64,000 nt of DNA. Source: Rhodovulum sp. MB263 (lineage in GTDB: Bacteria; Pseudomonadota; Alphaproteobacteria; Rhodobacterales; Rhodobacteraceae). The first letter of the stretch is position 1. Every line of letters starts with the position of its first letter. The translations under genes and the position numbers were made by a program. The notes beneath the pieces were generated by a model. That model made no database searches and was not told the origin of the DNA. It was given only the letters and a program-made list of their open reading frames with translations. The stretch lies in NCBI RefSeq assembly GCF_002073975.1, contig NZ_CP020384.1:2790001-2854000 (forward strand), in the 5' to 3' direction. Positions 47,277-57,932 of this stretch are shown here, piece by piece.

Positions 47277-48767
47277 TCACAGGCCGTAGCCGAGCAGCTT
47301 GAACCAGGTGAACACCGAGACAGAGATCACCGTGCCGCCGATCAGGCAGGTGACGATCCCGTATTTCAGCTGGTCGAGAACGCTGAAATACCCGGTCGCG
47401 AAATAGAGCGTGTTGACCTTGGAATGCGGCGGCAGGGTGATCGTGTAGGTCAGGGTGAACGAGGCCGCCAGCGCGAGCGTCACCGGGTTCAGCCCGAGGG
47501 TCTGGGCCAGCGCGATGATCGAGGGGATCAGGATGGTCGTGCGGACCGTCTTCGAGGTGAAGACCATGTGGCTGAACATGCTGAGGAAGATCACCACGAC
47601 ATAGACCGCGGCCGTGCTCATGTTCTCGATCCCGAGACCGCGCACCAGACCGCCGATCATCCATTCCGCCCCGCCGGTCGATTCCAGCGCGTTCCCCGCC
47701 GCATAGGCGCCCGCGGCGAAGATCATCAGGTCCCATTTGATATTGGCCTCCTTCCATTCCAGCAGGCCGATCCGCGGCATCAGGCACAGCACGGCCGCGA
47801 TTACCGCGGTCACGTAGATCGAGATGGAAAAGCCGTTGAACCAGAGCTCCTGGTAATCCGCCGTCGCCCAGAGCGTCACGGTGAGGGCGAAGATCGCCAT
47901 GGCCTTCTTCTCGGCCAGCGAGATCGGGCCGAGGCTGCGATGCTGTTCCTCGAGCTTCGACATGCCATGGCCGAAATCGATCTCGTCGCTGAAGCGAAAC
48001 AGGCGCAGCCCGACGAGGAAGGTGAGAAACATCGACATCATCGCCATCGGCATGCCGGCCAGCAGCCAGTCCATGTAGCCGATCTCGCCGCCGGCCTGAT
48101 CGTAGATGAACTGCACCGCGATCATGTTGGCGGCGGTACCGGTCATCACGCCAGAGGTCGCGAGCGCATCGGCCTGAACCCCCAGCAGCATCATCAGCCT
48201 GCCGAAATTGCTCTTGCCCGGAACCGCCCGGTAGATCTCGAGCAGGATGATGCAGATCGGCACCATCAGGCTGGCGCGCGCGGTGGTCGAGGGGATGAAG
48301 AAGACGATCACGAAGTTAATCAGCACGAGGATCGCCAGCGTCCGCGTCGGCGTGCCGCCGAAGCGGGTGACCATCCAGAGCGCGAAGCGGCGGGCGAGGT
48401 CCGACTTAACCATGGCCGAGGTCAGGACGAAGGCCGCGACCATCAGCCAAATGACGTTGAAGCCGAGCGTGCCGAAAGCGGTCTTCTCTCCGACGGTGCC
48501 GGTCAGCGCGAGGGCGATGATGGCGATCATCGAGGTCAGGTAGATCGGGATCGTGCCCGCGACCCAGAGCGTCAGCGCTCCGCAGAAGACCGCAAGCGCC
48601 TTTTGTCCCTCGGGCGCAAGCCCCGCCGGGTTCGGCATCAGATACAGCAGCAGAAAGACGGTTGCGGCCAGAAAGATGCCGTAGCGGCGCAGCAGCGTGT
48701 CCTTCCTGTCCTTACCCGGCCCCCTTTGGGAAGGGCCGGCGGCAGTCTCGGTTCGGGTCTCGGGCAA
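47277..48767 (-). CDS. SLC13 family (DASS) anion permease
   Basis: A 496-residue inner-membrane carrier of the divalent anion:sodium symporter family (dicarboxylates, sulfate or related anions). About eleven hydrophobic segments are present. The two re-entrant hairpins carry the family Ser/Thr-rich motifs in FFIPSTTARASLMVP and MVFTSKTVRTTILIPS. The start is TTG at 48767 with AGGAGG seven bases upstream. A divergent LysR gene 223 bases away is the likely regulator; which anion is moved cannot be read. Confidence 0.9.
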   Translation of the reverse strand: MPETRTETAAGPSQRGPGKDRKDTLLRRYGIFLAATVFLLLYLMPNPAGLAPEGQKALAVFCGALTLWVAGTIPIYLTSMIAIIALALTGTVGEKTAFGTLGFNVIWLMVAAFVLTSAMVKSDLARRFALWMVTRFGGTPTRTLAILVLINFVIVFFIPSTTARASLMVPICIILLEIYRAVPGKSNFGRLMMLLGVQADALATSGVMTGTAANMIAVQFIYDQAGGEIGYMDWLLAGMPMAMMSMFLTFLVGLRLFRFSDEIDFGHGMSKLEEQHRSLGPISLAEKKAMAIFALTVTLWATADYQELWFNGFSISIYVTAVIAAVLCLMPRIGLLEWKEANIKWDLMIFAAGAYAAGNALESTGGAEWMIGGLVRGLGIENMSTAAVYVVVIFLSMFSHMVFTSKTVRTTILIPSIIALAQTLGLNPVTLALAASFTLTYTITLPPHSKVNTLYFATGYFSVLDQLKYGIVTCLIGGTVISVSVFTWFKLLGYGL

Positions 48768-48889
48768 GGGGGGTCCTCCTCATTTGCCGGGTCGGCGCAG
48801 TTCGGAAACGACTGCGCGCGGCCCGTTCGTCCGGGGCTTCCGACGCCGCCGCCCCCTTGGTGAATACCGGAAAGGGCAAATCGGGGCCG

Positions 48890-48985
48890 GAAACGGTCCG
48901 TGCAGTTTCTTCGCGAATGAGAGATCTGTCTAATTTATAGTTTTTCGGATATTTATAGAAAATCTTTATATTCCATGCGGGAGGA
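48890..48985. promoter_or_regulatory. AT-rich divergent control region (SLC13 / lysR)
   Basis: An unusually AT-rich stretch with ATTTATAG and TTTATAT motifs (about 48930-48975) lies between the divergent transporter and lysR genes. The segment around GATATTTATAGAAAATCTTT has approximate dyad symmetry with the following TATATTCC. LysR-type regulators bind such AT-rich dyads near their own promoter; the exact site is not certain. Confidence 0.4.
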
Positions 48986-48990
48986 TCGCG

Positions 48991-49962
48991 ATGAACATCG
49001 CCCAGCTCGAGACCTTTCTGGAGCTTTCGGACTGCCTGAACGTGACCGAGACCGCCGCGCGGATGAACTGCACCCAGCCCGCCGTCAGCGCCCGCATCCG
49101 CGGGCTCGAGCAAAGCCTCGATACGACCCTGTTCGACCGGATCGGCAAGCGCATGCATCTGACCGCGAACGGCATCCTGTTTCTCGGCTATGCGCGCAAG
49201 GCCGTGGCGGCACTTCAGGATGCCAGCGAGCACCTGCGCCAGATGGACGACCCGCTTGTCGGCACGATCCGCTTCGGGGCATCGAATTTCACCGGGATCT
49301 ACCTGATGCCGGCCTTTCTCGGACGCTATCGTCAGGGCGCGCCCGAGCTGGAATTCGAACTCGAGATTGCAAGCTCGACGCAGCTGCTGGCCGATCTCGA
49401 TACCGCCAAGCTCGAATTCCTGATCCTCTCGGACCATATCGCGCTCGACGAACGGCGCTATCAATGTCGCCATGTCTGCAATGACGAGATGGTTCTGGTC
49501 GTCCCACCCGCGCATCCGCTCGCGACGGTCAGGGCCGCCACCAGCGCCGACCTGGCGCAGGACGTGTTCCTGATGAAGCCGCCGCCATCCGCCTCGCGCA
49601 GCTTCCTGCTCGACCGGCTCCAGGGCGACGAGAGCAGCCTGGGGCGGGTCATGCATATCTCCTCGACCGAGGCGATCAAGCAGGGCGTGCTGCACGGGCT
49701 CGGGATATCGGTCCTGTCGCGCTTCGTGGTGGCGCAGGAGCTGGCCGATGGCCGCCTGAAGGAGGTTCCCATGGCGCTGCGCCCGTTCCGACGCGGGATC
49801 CGGGTGATCAACCTGCGCGACAAGCTGCTGACCCCGGCGGCCAGCGAATTCATCAAATGCCTGGTCGAGAGCACCGGACGGGCGGAGGCCTTGCCCCAGA
49901 ACGCCGGGGGCGCGCAAGGCCCGTCGCATCCGCGTTCAGGCAGAGCGTCCCGCCAGACATGA
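48991..49962 (+). CDS. LysR family transcriptional regulator
   Basis: A 323-residue regulator. The N-terminal winged helix-turn-helix spans about residues 2-60 (MNIAQLETFLELSDCLNVTE, then the recognition helix AARMNCTQPAVSARIRGLEQ). It is followed by the periplasmic-binding-protein-like effector domain. GGGAGG lies at good distance from the ATG at 48991. It is divergent from the SLC13 permease and probably activates it with the transported anion as inducer. It is convergent with the catabolic operon, so less likely to control that. Confidence 0.92.
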   Translation: MNIAQLETFLELSDCLNVTETAARMNCTQPAVSARIRGLEQSLDTTLFDRIGKRMHLTANGILFLGYARKAVAALQDASEHLRQMDDPLVGTIRFGASNFTGIYLMPAFLGRYRQGAPELEFELEIASSTQLLADLDTAKLEFLILSDHIALDERRYQCRHVCNDEMVLVVPPAHPLATVRAATSADLAQDVFLMKPPPSASRSFLLDRLQGDESSLGRVMHISSTEAIKQGVLHGLGISVLSRFVVAQELADGRLKEVPMALRPFRRGIRVINLRDKLLTPAASEFIKCLVESTGRAEALPQNAGGAQGPSHPRSGRASRQT

Positions 49963-50170: not shown

Positions 50171-50635
50171 TTAGCGCCCCTGCATCAGCCGCAGGGGTTC
50201 GTAGATCATGACGGTCTCACCGCGCTGGTTCCGCACGGTATTCCTGGTCTTCACCAGCCCGCGGGTGCCCTTGCTTTCCTGACGGGCCTCGAGAACCTCG
50301 ATCTCGACATCGATCGTGTCGCCTTCGAGAACCGGGCCCTTGATGGTCATGGTCGTGCCGAGAAAGGCCAGCCCGGTTTCCTGTGCTGTCGCATTCAACG
50401 CCAGCCCCTCGGCCAGCGCGAAGACCAGCGCGCCCGGCGACGGGTTGCCCTTGATCGCGGCCTCGCTGCGGCGATATTCGGCATTGGTGAAAAGCACCTC
50501 GATCATGCCAGCCAGATTGACGAAGGCCGAGATGTCGGACGGCGTCACCGTCCTGCCATAGGTCTGATACCGGTCGCCGACCGTCATGTCCTGCCAGTAG
50601 AACCCCCGCCCGAGACGTATCGCCGCTTTGGTCAT
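50171..50635 (-). CDS. MaoC family dehydratase (second hydratase of the operon)
   Basis: A 154-residue hot-dog-fold protein of the MaoC/R-hydratase class. TVTPSDISAFVNLAG marks the start of the domain, and the central helix AEGLALNATAQE is followed by the strand TIKGPVLEGDTIDVEIEVLE. The canonical Asp/His hydratase motif is not obvious (MIEVLFTNAEY occupies that place). It may be a structural partner of the other MaoC protein, or have another activity. Its ATG overlaps the stop of the CitE-like gene, so translation is coupled. It is the last gene of the operon. Confidence 0.85.
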   Translation of the reverse strand: MTKAAIRLGRGFYWQDMTVGDRYQTYGRTVTPSDISAFVNLAGMIEVLFTNAEYRRSEAAIKGNPSPGALVFALAEGLALNATAQETGLAFLGTTMTIKGPVLEGDTIDVEIEVLEARQESKGTRGLVKTRNTVRNQRGETVMIYEPLRLMQGR

Positions 50636-51480
50636 GCCTGCTCTCCCGCGCGTTGCAAGATCAGCCGCGATCTCTTGAGATGCGGCATGTCGATCATCTC
50701 GCCGTCAATGGCCACCACACCGGCCGCCGGATCGGCCGCGAAGGCCTCAACGATCCGGCGCGCCACCGCGATCTCTTCATCGGAGGGCCGGAAACAACGG
50801 TTGATGATGGCAACCTGCGCCGGATGGATCGCCATCTTCCCGGTAAACCCGTCACGAACGGCCGCCAGACACTCCTGTTCAAGCCCCGCCAGATCGCGAA
50901 TATCGGTCCAGACCGTGTCGATGGGCTGAACCTCTGCGGCCACCGCGCCGAACAGGGTCAGGTTCCGCGCCAGGGCATAGGGGCCTGTCAGCGCCCCGTC
51001 CCCCCCGCGCGATCTGGCGCTTCCCAGCGCCGCCGACAGATCCTCGGCGCCCCAGGTCAGCCCGGCGAGGTCCGGAGAGAGACCGGCATAGCTGCCGAGC
51101 CCGAAGATCGCCCGTGCCGTCTCGGTCGCGATGGCCAGCACCGGCAGGCAGGTCCGCCCCCGCGTCGCGCAGGCCGCGCCCAGCGCCCGGACCGACTCGC
51201 CGCTTTCGGCCTTCGGCAGCACGATCCCGTCCGCACCGCCCTTAAGCGCGGTATCGAGATCCGCGTCGAAATCGGACGAATGCAGCGGGTTCACCCGCAC
51301 CCAGAGCCGGTTCGGCCCGCGCGGCGCGCAAAGCGCCTCGAGCACGCAGGCGCGCGCGGCGGCCTTCTCGGGGGCGGCGACCGAATCTTCGAGATCGAGG
51401 ATCAGCACATCCGCCGACAGGCCGCGCGCCTTGACGATCCTGTCGGGCCGGTTTCCGGGAACGAAAAGCCAGGACCGCAT
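50632..51480 (-). CDS. CitE-like HpcH/HpaI family CoA ester lyase
   Basis: A 282-residue TIM-barrel lyase of the CitE/citramalyl-CoA/malyl-CoA lyase group. SWLFVPGNRPDR opens the barrel. ILDLEDSVAAPEK holds the Mg-binding acid residues, with RVNPLHSSDF, DGIVLPKAES and GFTGKMAIHPAQV downstream. It should split a 3-hydroxyacyl-CoA, for example (S)-citramalyl-CoA to acetyl-CoA and pyruvate, or a malyl-CoA to glyoxylate and an acyl-CoA. The ATG shares one base with the preceding MaoC stop (TGATG), and its own stop overlaps the next MaoC gene. Confidence 0.9.
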   Translation of the reverse strand: MRSWLFVPGNRPDRIVKARGLSADVLILDLEDSVAAPEKAAARACVLEALCAPRGPNRLWVRVNPLHSSDFDADLDTALKGGADGIVLPKAESGESVRALGAACATRGRTCLPVLAIATETARAIFGLGSYAGLSPDLAGLTWGAEDLSAALGSARSRGGDGALTGPYALARNLTLFGAVAAEVQPIDTVWTDIRDLAGLEQECLAAVRDGFTGKMAIHPAQVAIINRCFRPSDEEIAVARRIVEAFAADPAAGVVAIDGEMIDMPHLKRSRLILQRAGEQA

Positions 51481-51944
51481 CACACCGCCTCCCTGTCGAG
51501 ACCGGACATCATCAGCGCCGAGCGGCGGCATTGCGCGACCAGCGTTCCGTCCTGCTTGCGGGCGCGGTGCTCGAAGACCACCACCCCCTGCCCGGGCCGC
51601 GAGCGCGACGGGCGCGCCGAGATCACCTCGGTCTCGACCCGCAGCGTGTCGCCATGAAAGACCGGCGCCGGGAAGATCACATCGGTCATGCCGAGATTGC
51701 CCAGCGTCGTGCCAAGCGTGGTCTCGTGGACGGAGATCCCGATCATGATGCCGAGCGTCAGGAGCGAATTCACCAGCGGCTGCCCCCATTCCGACGCCTC
51801 GGCGAAATGACGGTCGATATGCAAGGGCTGCGGGTTCATCGTCTGGACCGAGAACCCCACATTGTCGGCCTCGGTCACCGTGCGCGTGATGGCATGATGA
51901 ATGACCTCTCCCGCCCGAAACTCTTCCAGCCAGCGTCCGGCCAT
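51480..51944 (-). CDS. MaoC family dehydratase (first hydratase of the operon)
   Basis: A 154-residue hot-dog-fold enoyl-CoA-hydratase-like enzyme. It carries [17 protein letters not shown], the T-x-N-x-x-PLH-x-D variant of the MaoC motif that I associate with itaconyl-/mesaconyl-CoA hydratase-like proteins. The second half has [16 protein letters not shown]. It would hydrate the unsaturated acyl-CoA made by the CoA-transferase. The ATG at 51944 lies one base after the transferase stop (TGACATG), indicating coupling. A longer frame upstream reads through the transferase and is not real. Confidence 0.9.
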
Positions 51945-51945
51945 G

Positions 51946-53157
51946 TCACGCCTCCTCCCTGTCCGATCCTGCCCGTCGTCCGAGCACGCCGCGTTCCTCG
52001 AGCGCCCGGATGGCCTCGGCCCCGAAGCCAAGCTCTGACAGCAGCGCCGGCCCGTCCTCGCCAAGCTCGGGGGCGCGGCGGTCCGGCGCCGAGGGCTGCG
52101 CGCGGAAACGCACCGGTTGCGGCACCGAGCGCACCCGACTGTCCAGATCGTCGGTCGGCGCGAAGAAACCGACCGCCTGCAAATGCGGGTCCTTCAGCAG
52201 ATCGTCGAGCCCGCTGACGCGCGAATGCGGCACATCGAGACGCTCGAAGGTCGCGATCCAGGCCTCGGTCGGGCGCTTCGGCATCTCCTGGCCCAGGATC
52301 TCGTACATCTCGCCGACATGCTGCGAACGCTCGGTGGCATCGGCGAACCAGGGCCGGACCACGACATCGCGGCGGCCAAGCTCCTCGAAGGTGCGGCGCC
52401 AATGCCGTTCGGTATAGGGCAGCACGGCGATCCAGCCGTCGCTGGTGGGAAAGGGGCGACGGTGGCGGTTCAGAAGCCGCTGATACCCGGCGGGCGCGGC
52501 CTCGTCGAAACTTGCAGCGGCCATATGCTCGGCCATCACGAAGGAGGTCATGACCTCGAACATCGGCACCTCGATCTCGCAGCCCCTGCCCGTCCGGGCG
52601 CGCCCGACCAGCGCGGCGGAAATCGCGCTGGCCGCATAGAGCGCCGCGATCTTGTCGGCGATCACGCCCGGCACATAGGAAGGATCGTTGCCGGTATAGG
52701 TCGGCAGGCTGGCAATGCCCGAGGCGGCCTGGATCACATCGTCATAGGCGGGCCGGGCCGCATAGGGGCCTTCGCTGCCGAACCCGATGGCAGAGCAGTA
52801 GATCAGCCGCGGATTGCGCGCCATCAGCTCTGCCGGCCCAAGGCCCAGACGCTCGACCGCCTGCAGCCGCATGTTGTGCAGGAAGACATCCGCCCCGTCG
52901 ATCAGCTTCAGCAGGATCTCGCGGCCTTCCCCGGTCTTCAGGTCCAGGGCGATGCTCTTCTTGTTGCGGTTGTTGTTGGCGAACATCGAGCTGACGCCGA
53001 CCGGCGAGCGCGGATCGACATAGCGCGCAAGATCTCCGTTCGGCGCCTCGACCTTGACGACATCCGCGCCGAAATCGCCCAGCATCTGGCCCGCCATCGG
53101 CCCGAGCACGATCGTCGTCAGCTCGACGACCCGTACATCCTTCAACAGATCAAGCAC
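51946..53157 (-). CDS. CaiB/BaiF (class III) CoA-transferase
   Basis: A 403-residue family III CoA-transferase that moves CoA between carboxylates via an aspartyl anhydride. The N-terminus [17 protein letters not shown], then [28 protein letters not shown] and the candidate catalytic Asp139 in [13 protein letters not shown] are all family hallmarks. The GTG start at 53157 has AAAGGAG upstream. It presumably activates the substrate imported by the TRAP system, possibly with succinyl-CoA or acetyl-CoA as donor. It lies between dctP and the hydratase gene. Confidence 0.92.
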
Positions 53158-53212
53158 CCGCCTCTCCTTTCGTTGCGGGGCGGCCTTCGCGGCGGCCGCC
53201 CCGTGTCTGGCT

Positions 53213-54250
53213 TCAGTTGCCGCTATTGCGGAGGGCGTCGACCTCGGCCCGGAAATCGGCGAGGATCTCGCTTCCCTTCTTGCCGCGCCTGTCGAGGGCC
53301 GCGGCCCAGTCATCGGCGACGCTGGCGAAATCGGCGCGCAGCCTGGCCGCCTCCTCCTCGTCGAGCGCGAAGACCGTCACGCCCTCTTCGGACAGCTTGT
53401 CCTTGAGCTCTGCCTCGGCGGTGTCGAAGGCCTTGCAGGCGCTCTCGGTCACTTCCCGGCCGATCCGTGTCATGGCCTCCTGGATGTCGGCGGGCAGGCT
53501 GTCCCATTTGCGCTGCGAGATCGCATAGGTGATGCCGACCGACCCGAAATTCGCGTTCTGCGTCGCCGAACCGACGATCTGGTCGAGCCCATAGGAGAAG
53601 GTCGAGGTGAAGGGCAGCAGCGCCCCGTCCACCGTTCCCTTGGTCATCGCATCGAAGATCTCGGGCGGGGTCATGCGCACGGCGGTCGCGCCCGCGGACT
53701 GAAGCGACAGCTCCATCGCGCCGGGATTCGAGCGCATCTTCATGCCCTTGAACCCTTCGAGCGAGGTCACATCCGCCCGTTTCGAGAAGATCGCCTGATA
53801 GGGCGAGAGTGCCACATTGTAGAGCACGCGCACCCCGTTGGGCTGAAATTCGAGCGTGTCGAGCTTGCCTCCGGGCTGGATCAGCTCGGCGAAGGCCAGC
53901 GTTCCCTCGCAGGAGGAGGCGATCTCGCCGGGCAGCTCCACCACCCCGCCAAGCGGCATCTTCTCGGACACGTAGGACGGCACGATATAGCCGATATCGG
54001 CAATGCCGGCCTGGGTGATCGACAGGATGTCCTTGGCCTTGGCCAGCTGCTGCGCAGGGTAATGCTCGATCTCGATCCGGTCGCCGAACTCTTCCTTGAG
54101 CCGCGCCGTGAACACGTCGGTGGTGTTCCTGGTGATGATGTGATCGGCCGGCAGGCTGTCGGCGATCTTGAGCGTGACCTCCTGCGCGGCGAGCGGCGCG
54201 GCGGATGCCAGCGCGGCGCAGACCGACAGGATGCTGATGGTGGATTTCAT
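53213..54250 (-). CDS. dctP: TRAP transporter substrate-binding protein (DctP)
   Basis: A 345-residue periplasmic receptor of a tripartite TRAP transporter. A signal peptide (MKSTISILSVCAALASAAPL, cleavage near AAQ-EV) precedes the mature DctP fold. That fold shows TLKIADSLPADH, FPAQQL-like HYPAQQLAKAKD, and the ligand-arginine region GMKMRSNPGAME, followed by the long C-terminal helices. The ligand is likely a small (di)carboxylate. GGAGGAGAA precedes the ATG. It is separated from dctM by the cupin gene, an unusual order. Confidence 0.92.
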   Translation of the reverse strand: MKSTISILSVCAALASAAPLAAQEVTLKIADSLPADHIITRNTTDVFTARLKEEFGDRIEIEHYPAQQLAKAKDILSITQAGIADIGYIVPSYVSEKMPLGGVVELPGEIASSCEGTLAFAELIQPGGKLDTLEFQPNGVRVLYNVALSPYQAIFSKRADVTSLEGFKGMKMRSNPGAMELSLQSAGATAVRMTPPEIFDAMTKGTVDGALLPFTSTFSYGLDQIVGSATQNANFGSVGITYAISQRKWDSLPADIQEAMTRIGREVTESACKAFDTAEAELKDKLSEEGVTVFALDEEEAARLRADFASVADDWAAALDRRGKKGSEILADFRAEVDALRNSGN

Positions 54251-54297
54251 GGTCGTTCTCCTCCGATGGACCATTGGTTTGGGGGGGCGGCGGGCGC

Positions 54298-54693
54298 TCA
54301 GCACTCGACGCGGGCGCCTTCTCCGTAAGGCGGGCCGTAGCAGATCAGGACCTTGACCGGCGTCTCGCCGATCGCGGTGAAGCTGTGCGGCATGTCGGCG
54401 GGGAAAAAGCAGCTTTCCTCGGGACCGATCTCGCGGGTGAGGCCTCCGATCTCGACCCGTGCCCGGCCCTCCAGCATCCAGCAGAACTGGTCGATGCCGG
54501 GATGGAAATGTGGGCTCGCGCCCTCGCCCGGCTCGATCCGGCCGATCAGGACCTCGATCTGTGTCGCGCCGGTTTCGGGCGAGACAAGGCGCCGGTTCAC
54601 CGTCCCGCTATGGCCGCGCGGCGCATAGGACGCGGCCCTGGCCTCGGTCATGAAATACCTGCTGGGGTCGATGGCGTTCTTCGCGGTCGACAT
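54298..54693 (-). CDS. Cupin domain-containing protein
   Basis: A 131-residue single-domain cupin. The first metal motif reads SPHFHPGIDQFCWMLEG and the second ADMPHSF, giving His, His, Glu/Gln-like and His ligands on a beta barrel. There is no signal peptide. It might be a sensor or an isomerase acting on the transported acid. It is inserted between the dctM (19 bases) and dctP genes on the same transcript, so it should serve the same pathway. The exact function is unknown. Confidence 0.85.
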   Translation of the reverse strand: MSTAKNAIDPSRYFMTEARAASYAPRGHSGTVNRRLVSPETGATQIEVLIGRIEPGEGASPHFHPGIDQFCWMLEGRARVEIGGLTREIGPEESCFFPADMPHSFTAIGETPVKVLICYGPPYGEGARVEC

Positions 54694-54711
54694 GGGGGCT
54701 CCTCCCTTGGA

Positions 54712-55998
54712 TTACTGCGTCGTGCCGGGCAGCCACAGGACCAGCTGCGGAAACGCGACAAGCAACGCCAGAACGATGATATGCGAGACCACATGCGGCG
54801 CGACGCCGCGAAAGATCTCGGAGAGCGGGCGCTCGGCATAGCGGGACACCACGAAGATGTTCATGCCCAGCGGCGGGGTGATCATGCCGACCTCGGCCGC
54901 GACCACGACCAGCACGCCGAACCAGACCGGGTCGAAGCCGAGGCTGGTGATGGCGGGGACCATCACCGGAACGGTCAGGATCAGGATCGCCATCTGGTCC
55001 ATGAAACATCCCATGACCAGGTAGAAGGCGATGATCCCGGCCATCACCACATAGGGCGACACATCGAGGCCGGTGATCCAGTCCACGAACTGGGGCGTGA
55101 TCTGGCCCAGCGTGAGGACATAGCCGAAGATATGCGCCCCGATGATGATCATGAAGATCATGCAGGTCGCGCGGACGGCACGGGCCAGGGCGCCCCAGGT
55201 CGTCTTCAGGGTGAGGGTGCGGAAGGCCGCGGCGATCAGGAAGGCGCCGAAGGCCCCGAGCCCGGCGGCTTCGGTCGGCGTCGCGATGCCGAGATAGATC
55301 GAGCCCGTCACGCAGAGCAGAAGCAGAAGCATCGGTCCGATGGCGCGCAGCGCCCGGACCTTCTCGCGCATCGGCCAGGACCGCGCGACCGGGGCGATCG
55401 AGGGATCGCGCGCCATCAGCACATAGATCGTCGCGATGATCGCCAGCGTCACGATGATGCCCGGGATCACCCCTCCGATCAGCAGCGACGCGATATTCAC
55501 CTCGACGATGATGCCGTAGAGAACCAGCGCGATCGATGGCGGGATCAGCATGGCCAGCGTGCCCGAGACCGCGACCACGCCAGAGGCGAATTTCACGTCA
55601 TATCCGGCCCGGCGCATCGCCGGGATCGAGGTCGAGGACAGCGCCGCCGCCGCCGCGGTGGACGAGCCCGAAATCGCCCCGAACCCGGCCCCGGCAAGGG
55701 CCGTGGCCACGGCCAGCCCGCCCGGCAGGCGGCCGACCCAGATGGTGATCGCCTTGAACATCCGGTCGGCGATGCCGCTGACGATCACGAATTCGGCCAT
55801 CAGGATGAAAAGCGGCACCGCGATCAGCTCGAACCCGTTCGTGGTCGAAAGCGGCGTTGTCGACAGGACCGACAGCGCGCTGTCGAATCCGACGATGGTC
55901 ATCAGCCCCACGAGGCCGGTGAAGGCCAGCGCAAAGCCGACCGGGACGCCCAGGAGCAGCAGGCCGAGCAGGCCGATCACGACAAGAAGCGAGGTCAT
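54712..55998 (-). CDS. dctM: TRAP transporter large permease subunit (DctM)
   Basis: The 428-residue channel subunit of the TRAP transporter. About 12 hydrophobic segments span the chain. Family motifs include the start LLGVPVGFALAFTGLVGL, GFGAISGSSTAAAAALSS and the C-terminal GMITPPLGMNIFVVS. It couples Na+ entry to substrate uptake with DctQ and the DctP receptor. Its ATG overlaps the dctQ stop by four bases. The longer upstream frame belongs to dctQ DNA. Confidence 0.95.
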   Translation of the reverse strand: MTSLLVVIGLLGLLLLGVPVGFALAFTGLVGLMTIVGFDSALSVLSTTPLSTTNGFELIAVPLFILMAEFVIVSGIADRMFKAITIWVGRLPGGLAVATALAGAGFGAISGSSTAAAAALSSTSIPAMRRAGYDVKFASGVVAVSGTLAMLIPPSIALVLYGIIVEVNIASLLIGGVIPGIIVTLAIIATIYVLMARDPSIAPVARSWPMREKVRALRAIGPMLLLLLCVTGSIYLGIATPTEAAGLGAFGAFLIAAAFRTLTLKTTWGALARAVRATCMIFMIIIGAHIFGYVLTLGQITPQFVDWITGLDVSPYVVMAGIIAFYLVMGCFMDQMAILILTVPVMVPAITSLGFDPVWFGVLVVVAAEVGMITPPLGMNIFVVSRYAERPLSEIFRGVAPHVVSHIIVLALLVAFPQLVLWLPGTTQ

Positions 55999-56504
55999 TG
56001 CGCCGCCTCCCCGCTGACGCGGCCGAAGGCATTGCCAAGCGAGATTAGAATGCGCGCCGCGCAGACCAGGACCATCGCGGCCGAGCCCAGCGGCACAAGC
56101 GCATAGCTCGCCCATGCCGGCCAGGGCACGATGCTGGCGATGACCTCGTCATTGGCGAAACTCCCCGCCGCGCGCTCCCAGGAGGCCCAGGTCAGCAGGC
56201 CGAAGAGCCAGAGCCCGATCGCGCTGGACAGGACATGGGTCAGTTCCCGCAGCCGGGACGGCAGCCTGAGGGTCAGAAGATCGACGGCCAGATGCTCGGC
56301 GCGCCAGTAGGTCGGCCCGAAACCGAAGAAGAACACCGCGGGCGTCAGGTAGAGCACGACCAGATCATGCGCGAAGAAGATCGGCATCCCGGCGCCGTAG
56401 CGCAGCGCGACATCGGCGACGATCAGAAGCGTCATGCCCGCCAGCGCAAAGGCCGCGACGGCGGTGAAGGCGTGATCGACGAAGGACATGGCCTTGCGGA
56501 TCAT
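55995..56504 (-). CDS. dctQ: TRAP transporter small permease subunit (DctQ)
   Basis: A 169-residue four-helix membrane subunit: FTAVAAFALAGMTLLIVADV, DLVVLYLTPAVFFFGFGPTY, IGLWLFGLLTWASW and a last helix near PLGSAAMVLVCAARI. WRAEHLAVDLL matches the conserved R-x-x-H-x-x-V-D motif of DctQ proteins. It pairs with DctM. Its ATG overlaps the stop of the iclR-type gene (ATGA), placing the regulator at the head of its own operon. Confidence 0.92.
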   Translation of the reverse strand: MIRKAMSFVDHAFTAVAAFALAGMTLLIVADVALRYGAGMPIFFAHDLVVLYLTPAVFFFGFGPTYWRAEHLAVDLLTLRLPSRLRELTHVLSSAIGLWLFGLLTWASWERAAGSFANDEVIASIVPWPAWASYALVPLGSAAMVLVCAARILISLGNAFGRVSGEAAQ

Positions 56505-57256
56505 CGGCCGGCTCCGGTCTCGTTGATCTGGCTCCTGATGGCCGCAACGACGCGCCCGAGGGCCGCCGCGATCTCCTCATGGCGGTCCTGCATCCGGTAA
56601 TTCGGCCCCGCGACCGACAGCCCGTATTTCTGATCGGCGATATCGAGCAGCATGCCCACGGCCGACACCTCGGGCGTGAACTCGCTTGCGTTCAGGAACC
56701 AGCCGCGCGCGCGCCCCGCGACGATATCGCCGAACAGCGCCTCCCGGTCGGTGATCGAGGCCTCGGCAGCCTCGGAATAGTCGAGGCCGTCGAGCTCGCG
56801 CCGCAGTGCCGCGTCATCGAGAGAGCCGAGAATCGCCTTGCCCGACGAGATGGCATAGATCGGCCGGGTTTCCCCGGCCCGCGCCGAGTAGCGGACGCCC
56901 TTTCGGGATTCGAGCGCCTCGAGATAGATCACGCGGTCGCCTTCGCGCGCGGCCAGAAGGATCGTCTCGCCGGTCTCTTCGCGCAGCGCTTCCATGTGCT
57001 CGCGCACGAGGCCGAGGACCGGATCGCCCTCGAGGATCGACTGGGTCAGATCGTACATGCGGCGGGTCGGATAGAACCCGCCGCGCTTGCGGACCTCGAA
57101 CAGGAACCCGCGCTCCCGCAGGGTCGAGACGAGGTTGCTGGTGCTCGACAGCGGCAGTTTCAGCGTCTCGGACAGTTCGGTCAGCGTGGTCGGCCTCTGC
57201 GAGGCCGCGAAATATTCGAAAAAGCGCAGAACATTGTCAGCCTGGCGTACGGCCAT
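56501..57256 (-). CDS. IclR family transcriptional regulator
   Basis: A 251-residue regulator with an N-terminal winged helix (TTLTELSETLKLPLSSTSNL about residues 23-43) and a C-terminal GAF-like effector domain (VRYSARAGETRPIYAISSGK, GWFLNASEFTPEVSAVG). IclR-type proteins bind short palindromes near the start site and respond to small acids. A perfect palindrome lies 50-70 bases upstream of this gene. The ATG at 57256 has GGAGG at suitable distance. As first gene of the operon it probably autoregulates. Confidence 0.92.
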   Translation of the reverse strand: MAVRQADNVLRFFEYFAASQRPTTLTELSETLKLPLSSTSNLVSTLRERGFLFEVRKRGGFYPTRRMYDLTQSILEGDPVLGLVREHMEALREETGETILLAAREGDRVIYLEALESRKGVRYSARAGETRPIYAISSGKAILGSLDDAALRRELDGLDYSEAAEASITDREALFGDIVAGRARGWFLNASEFTPEVSAVGMLLDIADQKYGLSVAGPNYRMQDRHEEIAAALGRVVAAIRSQINETGAGR

Positions 57257-57303: not shown

Positions 57304-57323
57304 AACTTCCTGTGCAGGAAGTT
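57304..57323. promoter_or_regulatory. Palindromic operator for the IclR regulator
   Basis: AACTTCCTGTGCAGGAAGTT is a perfect 9-bp inverted repeat with a 2-base centre. It lies just downstream of a promoter and 48 bases ahead of the iclR start. A second, weaker site CTTC-N8-GAAG is next to it (57326-57341) and overlaps the -10 element. The position fits repression by blocking early transcription. Confidence 0.7.
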
Positions 57324-57339: not shown

Positions 57340-57367
57340 AGTATGTCGCCCGCATTTTACGGGTCAA
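57340..57367 (-). promoter_or_regulatory. Probable promoter of the nine-gene catabolic operon
   Basis: On the minus strand TTGACC (57367-57362) and CATACT (57345-57340) are spaced 16 bases apart, a good -35 and a fair -10. The start would be near 57333, about ten bases before the perfect palindrome. Confidence 0.55.
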
Positions 57368-57855: not shown

Positions 57856-57932
57856 TGGTACCGCCTCCCCGGCTCGAACGGGGGACCCCCAGATCCACAA
57901 TCTGGTGCTCTAACCAACTGAGCTAAGGCGGC
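57856..57932 (-). tRNA. tRNA-His (anticodon GTG), alphaproteobacterial type
   Basis: A 77-nt tRNA on the minus strand with acceptor GCCGCCT against AGGCGGT, so pair 1-72 is G-U. D arm TAGCTCAGTTGGTTAGAGC; anticodon loop TTGTGGA (GTG). T arm GGGGG/CCGTTCGAG. Discriminator A73 and CCA are encoded. No G-1/C73 pair can form: the base upstream is T and position 73 is A. That combination is known from alphaproteobacteria whose HisRS has changed recognition. Confidence 0.95.

Follow-up and report, generated by a model that had tools for sequence, protein, structure and literature searches.

A nine-gene operon of Rhodovulum sp. MB263 that may import and degrade a branched C6 dicarboxylic acid

A stretch of 64,000 nucleotides from contig NZ_CP020384.1 of Rhodovulum sp. 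MB263 (positions 2,790,001 to 2,854,000; hereafter the window) carries at 50171-57256 nine genes, all on the minus strand, for an IclR-family regulator, the small and large permeases DctQ and DctM of a tripartite ATP-independent periplasmic (TRAP) transporter, a cupin, the solute-binding protein DctP, a class III coenzyme A (CoA)-transferase, a MaoC protein (MaoC1), a CitE-like lyase and a second MaoC protein (MaoC2). With about an even chance of being right, we propose that this operon imports a branched C6 acid, 3-methylglutaconate or 3-hydroxy-3-methylglutarate (HMG), and degrades it via its CoA ester by an HMG-type pathway. The genes had been listed in this order by an earlier sequence-only reading of the same DNA, and the family that it had named for each of the nine proteins was borne out by Pfam. 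The tight packing that it had described is likewise real: neighbouring genes overlap by 4, 4, 1 and 4 bases or are separated by 1, 18, 47 and 55 bases (coding spans with predicted start codons; the longest open frames were used in the Pfam search). The same nine genes stand in identical order in Sulfitobacter dubius (locus L039) and Roseovarius sp. MMSF_3281 (locus L040), at 60-86% identity to the host, so the operon is not a product of chance.

The reactions, the substrate and the regulation proposed here are what we infer from gene content, conservation, trees and genome distribution. The TRAP transporter would import the acid, most likely 3-methylglutaconate or HMG, and the class III CoA-transferase would load CoA onto it from a donor such as succinyl-CoA, the likely donor for this enzyme. 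MaoC1 would hydrate 3-methylglutaconyl-CoA to (R)-HMG-CoA, which the CitE-like enzyme would cleave to acetyl-CoA and acetoacetate; if HMG were the substrate, MaoC1 would be idle. The cupin and MaoC2 would assist the entry half of the pathway as conserved accessory proteins. Import of the free acid followed by activation, hydration and cleavage is the simplest reading because a TRAP transporter and a CoA-transferase precede the MaoC1-lyase pair in the operon. No bacterial uptake operon for 3-methylglutaconate or HMG was found in the titles and abstract starts of the literature matches listed, nor did any literature match describe an operon of MaoC, TRAP, transferase and citrate-lyase genes in a roseobacter. 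If the proposal is true, bacteria use a branched C6 acid as food by means of an operon that none of those matches describes, and the presence of CoA-transferase, MaoC and CitE together is not sufficient evidence of itaconate degradation.

The MaoC1-lyase pair

The CitE-like lyase (50632..51480, minus strand; PF03328, 120.5 bits) has its best solved relatives in Rv2498c (143 bits), RipC (126 bits) and PA0883 (116 bits). It aligns identically with the Mg-binding Glu112 and Asp138 and with Arg64 of Rv2498c (in TETAR, GAED and WVRVN), residues whose roles are taken from PMC6689899. The position of Met133 in Rv2498c is Thr in the window lyase; this residue was rejected as a specificity marker, as it is Thr or Ala in most pair-type lyases and Ala (two) or Leu (one) in the itaconate-type ones. 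Rv2498c has similar lyase activity on (R)-HMG-CoA and (S)-citramalyl-CoA, and PA0883 is likewise active on (R)-HMG-CoA (PMC6689899), so that this activity alone does not exclude a role in itaconate degradation. MaoC1 (51480..51944, minus strand; PF01575, 79 bits) is a putative hydratase of 154 residues and one domain. It has an Asn/His pair with the spacing of Asn226/His231, the proposed catalytic pair of the mesaconyl-CoA hydratase MeaC (PMC10164722), and is for this reason probably catalytically active. Judged from the comparisons below, MaoC1 is a probable 3-methylglutaconyl-CoA hydratase and its neighbour a probable (R)-HMG-CoA lyase, perhaps also a (S)-citramalyl-CoA lyase.

Adjacent MaoC (49-53% identical) and lyase (52-54%) genes occur in Rhizobium and Agrobacterium operons. 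In R. etli p42c, A. larrymoorei and R. leguminosarum the row reads isovaleryl-CoA dehydrogenase, carboxyl transferase, acyl-CoA carboxylase alpha subunit (acetyl/propionyl/methylcrotonyl), MaoC and lyase. Given the roles of the leucine-pathway enzymes, the pair takes the place after isovaleryl-CoA dehydrogenase and the carboxylase subunits at which a 3-methylglutaconyl-CoA hydratase and an HMG-CoA lyase would be expected. These operons differ from that of the window in having no transporter, transferase, cupin or MaoC2, and the function of the pair there is read from its neighbours.

Trees were built for 33 of the 103 collected lyases and for 29 of the 121 MaoC proteins, after removal of copies of the window genes and short duplicate loci and with subsampling of the alphaproteobacterial pairs by hand; lyases L130 and L161 and the MaoC proteins of L064, L083, L159 and L161 are missing rows. 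Itaconate-type clusters were assigned by gene order, either as MmgE/PrpD, dehydrogenase, transferase, MaoC and lyase together (L131, L177) or as transferase, MaoC and lyase with TRAP genes (L130, L132); the lyases of L131, L132 and L177 are long-branched, and the tree does not include PA0883 itself. The lyases of the window, S. dubius and Roseovarius form a clade (support 100/98), which adjoins, with moderate support (85/81), five lyases from the three leucine-type Rhizobium/Agrobacterium operons and from two sphingomonads. The starred group around this clade and its five neighbours (95/92) excludes the itaconate-type lyases L131, L132 and L177 as well as two malyl-CoA-type enzymes of the host. 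A phylogenetic comparison of the MaoC proteins with characterised hydratases had been put forward as a check by the sequence-only reading; in the present tree a starred split (100/100) sets MaoC1 apart from the three itaconate-type MaoC proteins (L130, L131, L132). MaoC1 falls in the same half (100/100) as the MaoC proteins of leucine operons, yet it is not their sister.

The distribution of the lyase was followed in 240 genomes drawn from the host's class, taken to be Alphaproteobacteria, 239 of which remain with the host left out. The limits (E <= 1e-50 for the lyase, E <= 1e-200 for the beta subunit of methylcrotonyl-CoA carboxylase and E <= 1e-60 for classical HMG-CoA lyase) were chosen after preliminary results. 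A lyase homologue is present in 30 of the 239 genomes, and the carboxylase beta subunit accompanies it in all 30, against 90 of the 209 others (Fisher p 2e-10, with genomes counted rather than independent events). Of the 120 carboxylase-bearing genomes, 30 have the lyase homologue, and 9 of these also showed the classical HMG-CoA lyase, as did 74 of the 90 genomes lacking the homologue (p 3e-7, kinship ignored); the classical enzyme was thus not found in 21 of the former and 16 of the latter, these 16 showing neither lyase at the set limits. The 30 lyase-bearing genomes span 20 families; for 14 of these families the sample contains no genome with both the lyase homologue and the classical enzyme. 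A separate set of 20 genomes carries a lyase homologue that is not part of such an operon; the carboxylase is present in every one of them, and six lack an HMG-CoA-lyase-like hit (E <= 1e-15). This is a pattern of HMG-CoA lyase replacement, as expected of a (R)-HMG-CoA lyase and matching Rv2498c. To judge from these 30 genomes and from L158, L160 and L162, a MaoC-lyase pair seems to take the place of the classical enzyme in leucine breakdown across many families of the class. The (R)-HMG-CoA route of leucine breakdown, termed unprecedented in the 2019 report (PMC6689899), would thus be widespread in this class and directly testable.

The host itself holds a leucine operon (L173) with a classical HMG-CoA lyase that matches PF00682 and lies close to the carboxylase, and the genomes of L039 and L040 have the classical enzyme within 6 kb of the carboxylase. 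Leucine breakdown should therefore not need the window pair in these three organisms, and in the host the pair probably serves the imported acid.

Several points weigh against degradation of a C6 acid. The lyase by itself does not distinguish a C5 from a C6 substrate, because Rv2498c cleaves both kinds of ester about equally well; HMG would not need MaoC1; 3-methylglutarate would require a dehydrogenase, and the operon has none; and neither the cupin nor MaoC2 has a step in the scheme. In the lyase tree, the sister grouping (85/81) is under the starred level, there are long branches, some of which, among the lyases left out of the starred group, drew the program's warning of possible false joining, and the lyase of a leucine cluster (L097) is placed elsewhere. 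The two sphingomonad sister lyases are not known from leucine operons, and one of them (L159) has a CoA-transferase and acyl-CoA dehydrogenases in its vicinity. As for the distribution, the lyase homologue is within 4 kb of the carboxylase in two of the 30 genomes and not near it in the other 28, and the complete co-occurrence may partly be an effect of genome size, small genomes having neither gene. Furthermore, 14 of the 20 separate genomes do have an HMG-CoA-lyase-like hit (E <= 1e-15), twelve of them at a best identity of 35-51%.

Conservation and related clusters

In a scan for the lyase with one genome per species, the best 80 of at least 278 relatives' loci were kept. The nine-gene set is complete in two of them, L039 and L040, some of the loci being too short to show it. 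Identity to the host there is 85-86% for DctM, 77-78% for the cupin, 77-80% for MaoC1, 73-76% for MaoC2 and 60% for the lyase. In the host's family, 295 genomes with the host counted, MaoC2 has no other match above 64% identity, and on this count the operon looks rare and sporadic. Such a spread fits the insertion-sequence genes on both sides of it in S. dubius (100-855 and 13712-14850 of L039, judged by eye). Just upstream of the operon in the window, on the same strand, lies a tRNA-His gene (57856-57932), and genes of this type are a common landing site of mobile DNA.

Most of the other 78 kept loci have the adjacent MaoC1-lyase pair without the remaining genes. The operon is made of two modules, a back half with this pair and a front half around one subfamily of CoA-transferase. 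The CoA-transferase (51946..53157, minus strand, GTG start; PF02515, 370 bits) keeps the Asp of the PAYDD stretch, the catalytic residue of class III CoA-transferases. It is 40-44% identical to six relatives from clusters with MaoC2 (Paracoccus saliphilus, Paraburkholderia sprentiae, Cupriavidus oxalaticus) or with the cupin (Roseomonas mucosa, R. haemaphysalidis, Comamonas antarctica). All six clusters hold an acyl-CoA dehydrogenase, and five have a solute-binding protein close by; the window operon unites both halves, minus the acyl-CoA dehydrogenase. A strict link of MaoC2 to this transferase subfamily is countered by the MaoC2 relatives of P. fungorum, Achromobacter and Frigidibacter, which lie near transferases of other subfamilies (28-33% identical to that of the window: 32-33% at L141 and L143, 28% for the tested one of L140).

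The plasmid cluster of R. haemaphysalidis has in a row a cupin, a solute-binding protein, a CoA-transferase, an acyl-CoA dehydrogenase, a MaoC protein and a lyase, with homologues of the window cupin (54%), transferase (42%), MaoC1 (51%) and lyase (40%). It differs in a solute-binding protein of the tripartite tricarboxylate rather than the TRAP type, in the extra acyl-CoA dehydrogenase and in having no MaoC2, and it is annotated by family alone. In Frigidibacter mobilis and two genomes of the host's family, TRAP genes, the MaoC1-lyase pair, MaoC2, a thiolase and a ligase occur together (names partly by eye). These three clusters additionally carry an acyl-CoA dehydrogenase, the thiolase, an adenosine monophosphate (AMP) ligase and an acetyl-CoA hydrolase/transferase-like gene; acetoacetate therefore fits as a product.

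Another CoA-transferase III cluster of the host (L134, C1:3640670-3650822) has an acyl-CoA dehydrogenase, two adjacent short hot-dog genes, a dihydrodipicolinate-synthase-like gene, a LysR regulator and a TRAP transporter. Names were given by eye to the genes of L097, L121, L122 and L134, to the MmgE/PrpD and dehydrogenase genes of L131, to the insertion-sequence genes of L039, to the malyl-CoA-type enzymes of L154 and L155 and to the leucine operon of L173 except its PF00682-matching lyase.

MaoC2 and the cupin

The sequence-only reading had pointed out that its three-step scheme does not account for two different MaoC proteins and a cupin. The puzzle of the two MaoC genes is real, but the second protein is not a hydratase with the usual residues. 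MaoC2 (50171..50635, minus strand) is a predicted hot-dog protein below the PF01575 cut-off (22.6 vs 27 bits) and over that of PF13452 (30.3 vs 22). Across the 21 aligned sequences of its clade, among them that of the window, Met44 (20 sequences) and Phe49 (all 21) take the place of the catalytic pair, so that both catalytic residues (Asp/Asn and His) are absent from every member; Glu46, Glu76, Tyr145 and Arg149 are invariant. L120, L137 and L138, one partial gene and two distant proteins keeping Asp and His, were left out. A model predicted from 14 sequences has the hot-dog fold (mean predicted local distance difference test score, pLDDT, 81.8), with 1q6w as nearest solved fold and HadAB dimers further down. 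MaoC2 is, to judge by these residues, not an ordinary hydratase and belongs to a conserved hot-dog clade.

MaoC2 could be the inert partner of MaoC1 in a two-gene double hot-dog hydratase, like HadA with HadB, which would fit any substrate; we consider this possible, on the unlikely side. It would account for the loss of both catalytic residues and for the split between the two proteins, MaoC1 passing PF01575 and MaoC2 PF13452, and HadAB chains are among the structural matches of the predicted MaoC2 model. There is also precedent for such partners, as HadA and HadC lack the catalytic residues and pair with HadB (PMC11321319), and in P. fungorum the MaoC2 homologue is followed by a MaoC protein having Asn and His. 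Nevertheless, MaoC2 was not found in the other 78 of the best 80 lyase loci, most of which hold MaoC1, and six of eight plasmid loci show no other MaoC within 9 kb of MaoC2 by gene table or tblastn. The invariant Glu46, Glu76, Tyr145 and Arg149 suggest more than scaffolding. Because of the six plasmid loci, it is at least equally probable that MaoC2 has its own chemistry and is not an inert partner. The survey of MaoC2 neighbourhoods gene by gene was made without L123, L125, L127 and L128. On plasmid pLME1 of Delftia acidovorans (L142), a Met/Phe relative of MaoC2 has as neighbours a solute-binding protein and a dihydrodipicolinate-synthase-like gene, and chlorocatechol-type genes lie alongside.

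The single-domain cupin (54298..54693, minus strand; PF07883, 55.9 bits) keeps the motif HxHPx[IML][DE]Q...H in seven of eight aligned sequences, the exception being L141, a distant row, and on account of this motif it is probably metal-binding. Its relatives adjoin CoA-transferase genes, or sit one gene from them, on Roseomonas and Comamonas plasmids. The predicted model (mean pLDDT 65) is too weak for fold comparison.

A more specific form of our proposal can be offered tentatively, as a conjecture more apt to fail than to hold. The operon would be dedicated to free 3-methylglutaconate or HMG, the (R)-specific leucine-type pair having been joined to the CoA-transferase, the cupin and a hot-dog protein without the catalytic dyad. 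These would act on the acid or its first CoA ester, for example with MaoC2 as an E/Z isomerase using the invariant Glu46 or Glu76.

Itaconate and other substrates

The combination of CoA-transferase, hydratase and CitE lyase had been read from the sequence as that of itaconate degradation. The enzyme classes and a TRAP-fed pathway ending in a C-C lyase stand; the filing under itaconate is weakened by the trees, by the profiles and by the lack of mcd and msi, no acyl-CoA dehydrogenase or MmgE/PrpD protein being found by Pfam among the nine proteins. The doubt that the sequence-only reading itself had expressed about the substrate is supported, the branched acid being unsettled and possibly C6, and the extra isomer step that it had considered is possible for MaoC2 or the cupin.

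In a C5 pathway, itaconate, mesaconate or citramalate would be imported and converted to the CoA ester, MaoC1 would hydrate this to (S)-citramalyl-CoA, and the lyase would split the product into acetyl-CoA and pyruvate; this appears to us rather unlikely. These acids stay possible because lyases of this kind have dual activity, Rv2498c cleaving (S)-citramalyl-CoA too. The enzyme classes equal those of known itaconate clusters, and RipC_Ccl and RipB_Ich are the best NCBIfam profiles of the lyase (177 of 375 bits) and of MaoC1 (117 of 340); both scores are far under the cut-off, at a third to a half of it. MaoC1 has the Asn/His pair proposed for MeaC and is over the PF19315 cut-off (53 vs 26.5 bits), covering about half of that profile (positions 20-155 of 353). 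A TRAP transporter for itaconate also exists (PMC12599236). Against a C5 acid stand the position of the lyase and MaoC1 outside the itaconate-type clades and a lyase distribution that tracks leucine breakdown. The transferase is 32% identical to that of a Mesorhizobium itaconate-type cluster, and MaoC1 matches the 280-residue hydratase of this five-gene cluster weakly (blastp E 0.043; hhalign probability 19%, E 0.0012).

More precise assignments were also tried. MaoC1 and MaoC2 gave no convincing match as the two parts of a split Mesorhizobium-type 280-residue hydratase. The RipA CoA-transferase is not known as a class III enzyme. A RipABC-type cluster is not supported, as the window transferase belongs to that class and the RipB and RipC cut-offs were missed. 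An itaconate/methylsuccinate cluster of the P. aeruginosa/C. necator type is not supported either, the lyase being outside the group of such lyases assigned by gene order, MaoC1 not of the 280-residue type and mcd and msi genes absent. The ict-ich-ccl-mcd-msi set serves both acids in these organisms (Gonner et al., PMC12290011) and resembles the window in having CoA-transferase, hydratase and CitE-type lyase in one cluster, as does IctPQM of P. aeruginosa in its TRAP uptake (PMC12599236). The itaconate clusters compared differ in the subfamilies of all three enzymes, and the window lacks mcd and msi and has the cupin and MaoC2.

Two further systems are close. The leucine route of Rv2498c (PMC6689899) shares with the window the lyase type described above; the CoA ester arises there inside the cell from leucine (or itaconate), whereas the window has a TRAP transporter and a CoA-transferase ahead of the pair. 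MeaC and malyl-CoA lyase of the ethylmalonyl-CoA pathway (PMC10164722, PMC3832036) share the MaoC Asn/His pair and the CitE superfamily. MeaC, with about 350 residues, has two domains in one chain, and the single-domain MaoC1 does not fit the mesaconyl-CoA hydratase of that pathway in this respect; the host has probable MeaC and malyl-CoA lyase copies elsewhere (by eye).

The solute-binding protein DctP (53213..54250, minus strand; PF03480, 120 bits) passes the general TRAP profile NF037995 (87.6 bits, cut-off 50) and falls below the C4-dicarboxylate profile TIGR00787 (59.8 of 175 bits), and its best solved relatives are, by name, a mixed set. Its sequence for these reasons does not decide the substrate. 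The literature search returned no paper on the ligand of its best solved structures, 7NR2 and 7NRA. IctP is a close relative of the C4-dicarboxylate DctP (PMC12599236); a solute-binding protein of this DctP/IctP type is not supported, the TIGR00787 cut-off being missed and IctP itself being unscored.

An improbable alternative is a larger or differently substituted 3-alkylglutaconate, glutarate or aromatic acid, which the cupin and MaoC2 would prepare for cleavage as a 3-hydroxy-3-alkylglutaryl-CoA. It would agree with MaoC2 relatives lying near acyl-CoA dehydrogenases, crotonases and thiolases and, in two plasmids, near an AtuA-family gene (one also with biotin carboxylase pieces), and with the DctP score below the C4-dicarboxylate profile and the mixed set of solved DctP relatives. 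The nine genes include no dehydrogenase, no ring-opening enzyme and no thiolase, however, and the lyase groups near enzymes expected to act on a methyl-substituted acid.

Regulation and flanking genes

The first gene of the operon encodes the IclR-family regulator (56501..57256, minus strand; PF09339, 41.9 bits; PF01614, 96.1 bits). It overlaps by 4 bases with dctQ (55995..56504, minus strand; PF04290, 81.4 bits), which in turn overlaps by 4 bases with dctM (54712..55998, minus strand; PF06808, 313 bits; TIGR00786, 341 bits, cut-off 268). IclR would control the operon, probably by binding a palindrome ahead of its own gene. The candidate operator is a perfect 20-base palindrome, AACTTCCTG-CA-CAGGAAGTT, at 57304..57323, between a promoter-like site and iclR, and it is the sole perfect copy in the host genome (4.16 Mb, three contigs). 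No comparable palindrome was found before iclR in L039 or L040, and no operator common to all three operons was found. The promoter-like site, TTGACC-16-CATACT (57340..57367, minus strand), is a weak sigma-70-like candidate, as the scanned stretch has two such sites where 0.8 are expected. Direct repeats within the operon fall into 49 short families, with none striking among the 20 listed.

Downstream of the last gene, at 47277-49962, lies a divergent pair of a LysR regulator (PF03466) on the plus strand and a membrane protein on the minus strand, the latter resembling, as judged by eye, a divalent-anion symporter.

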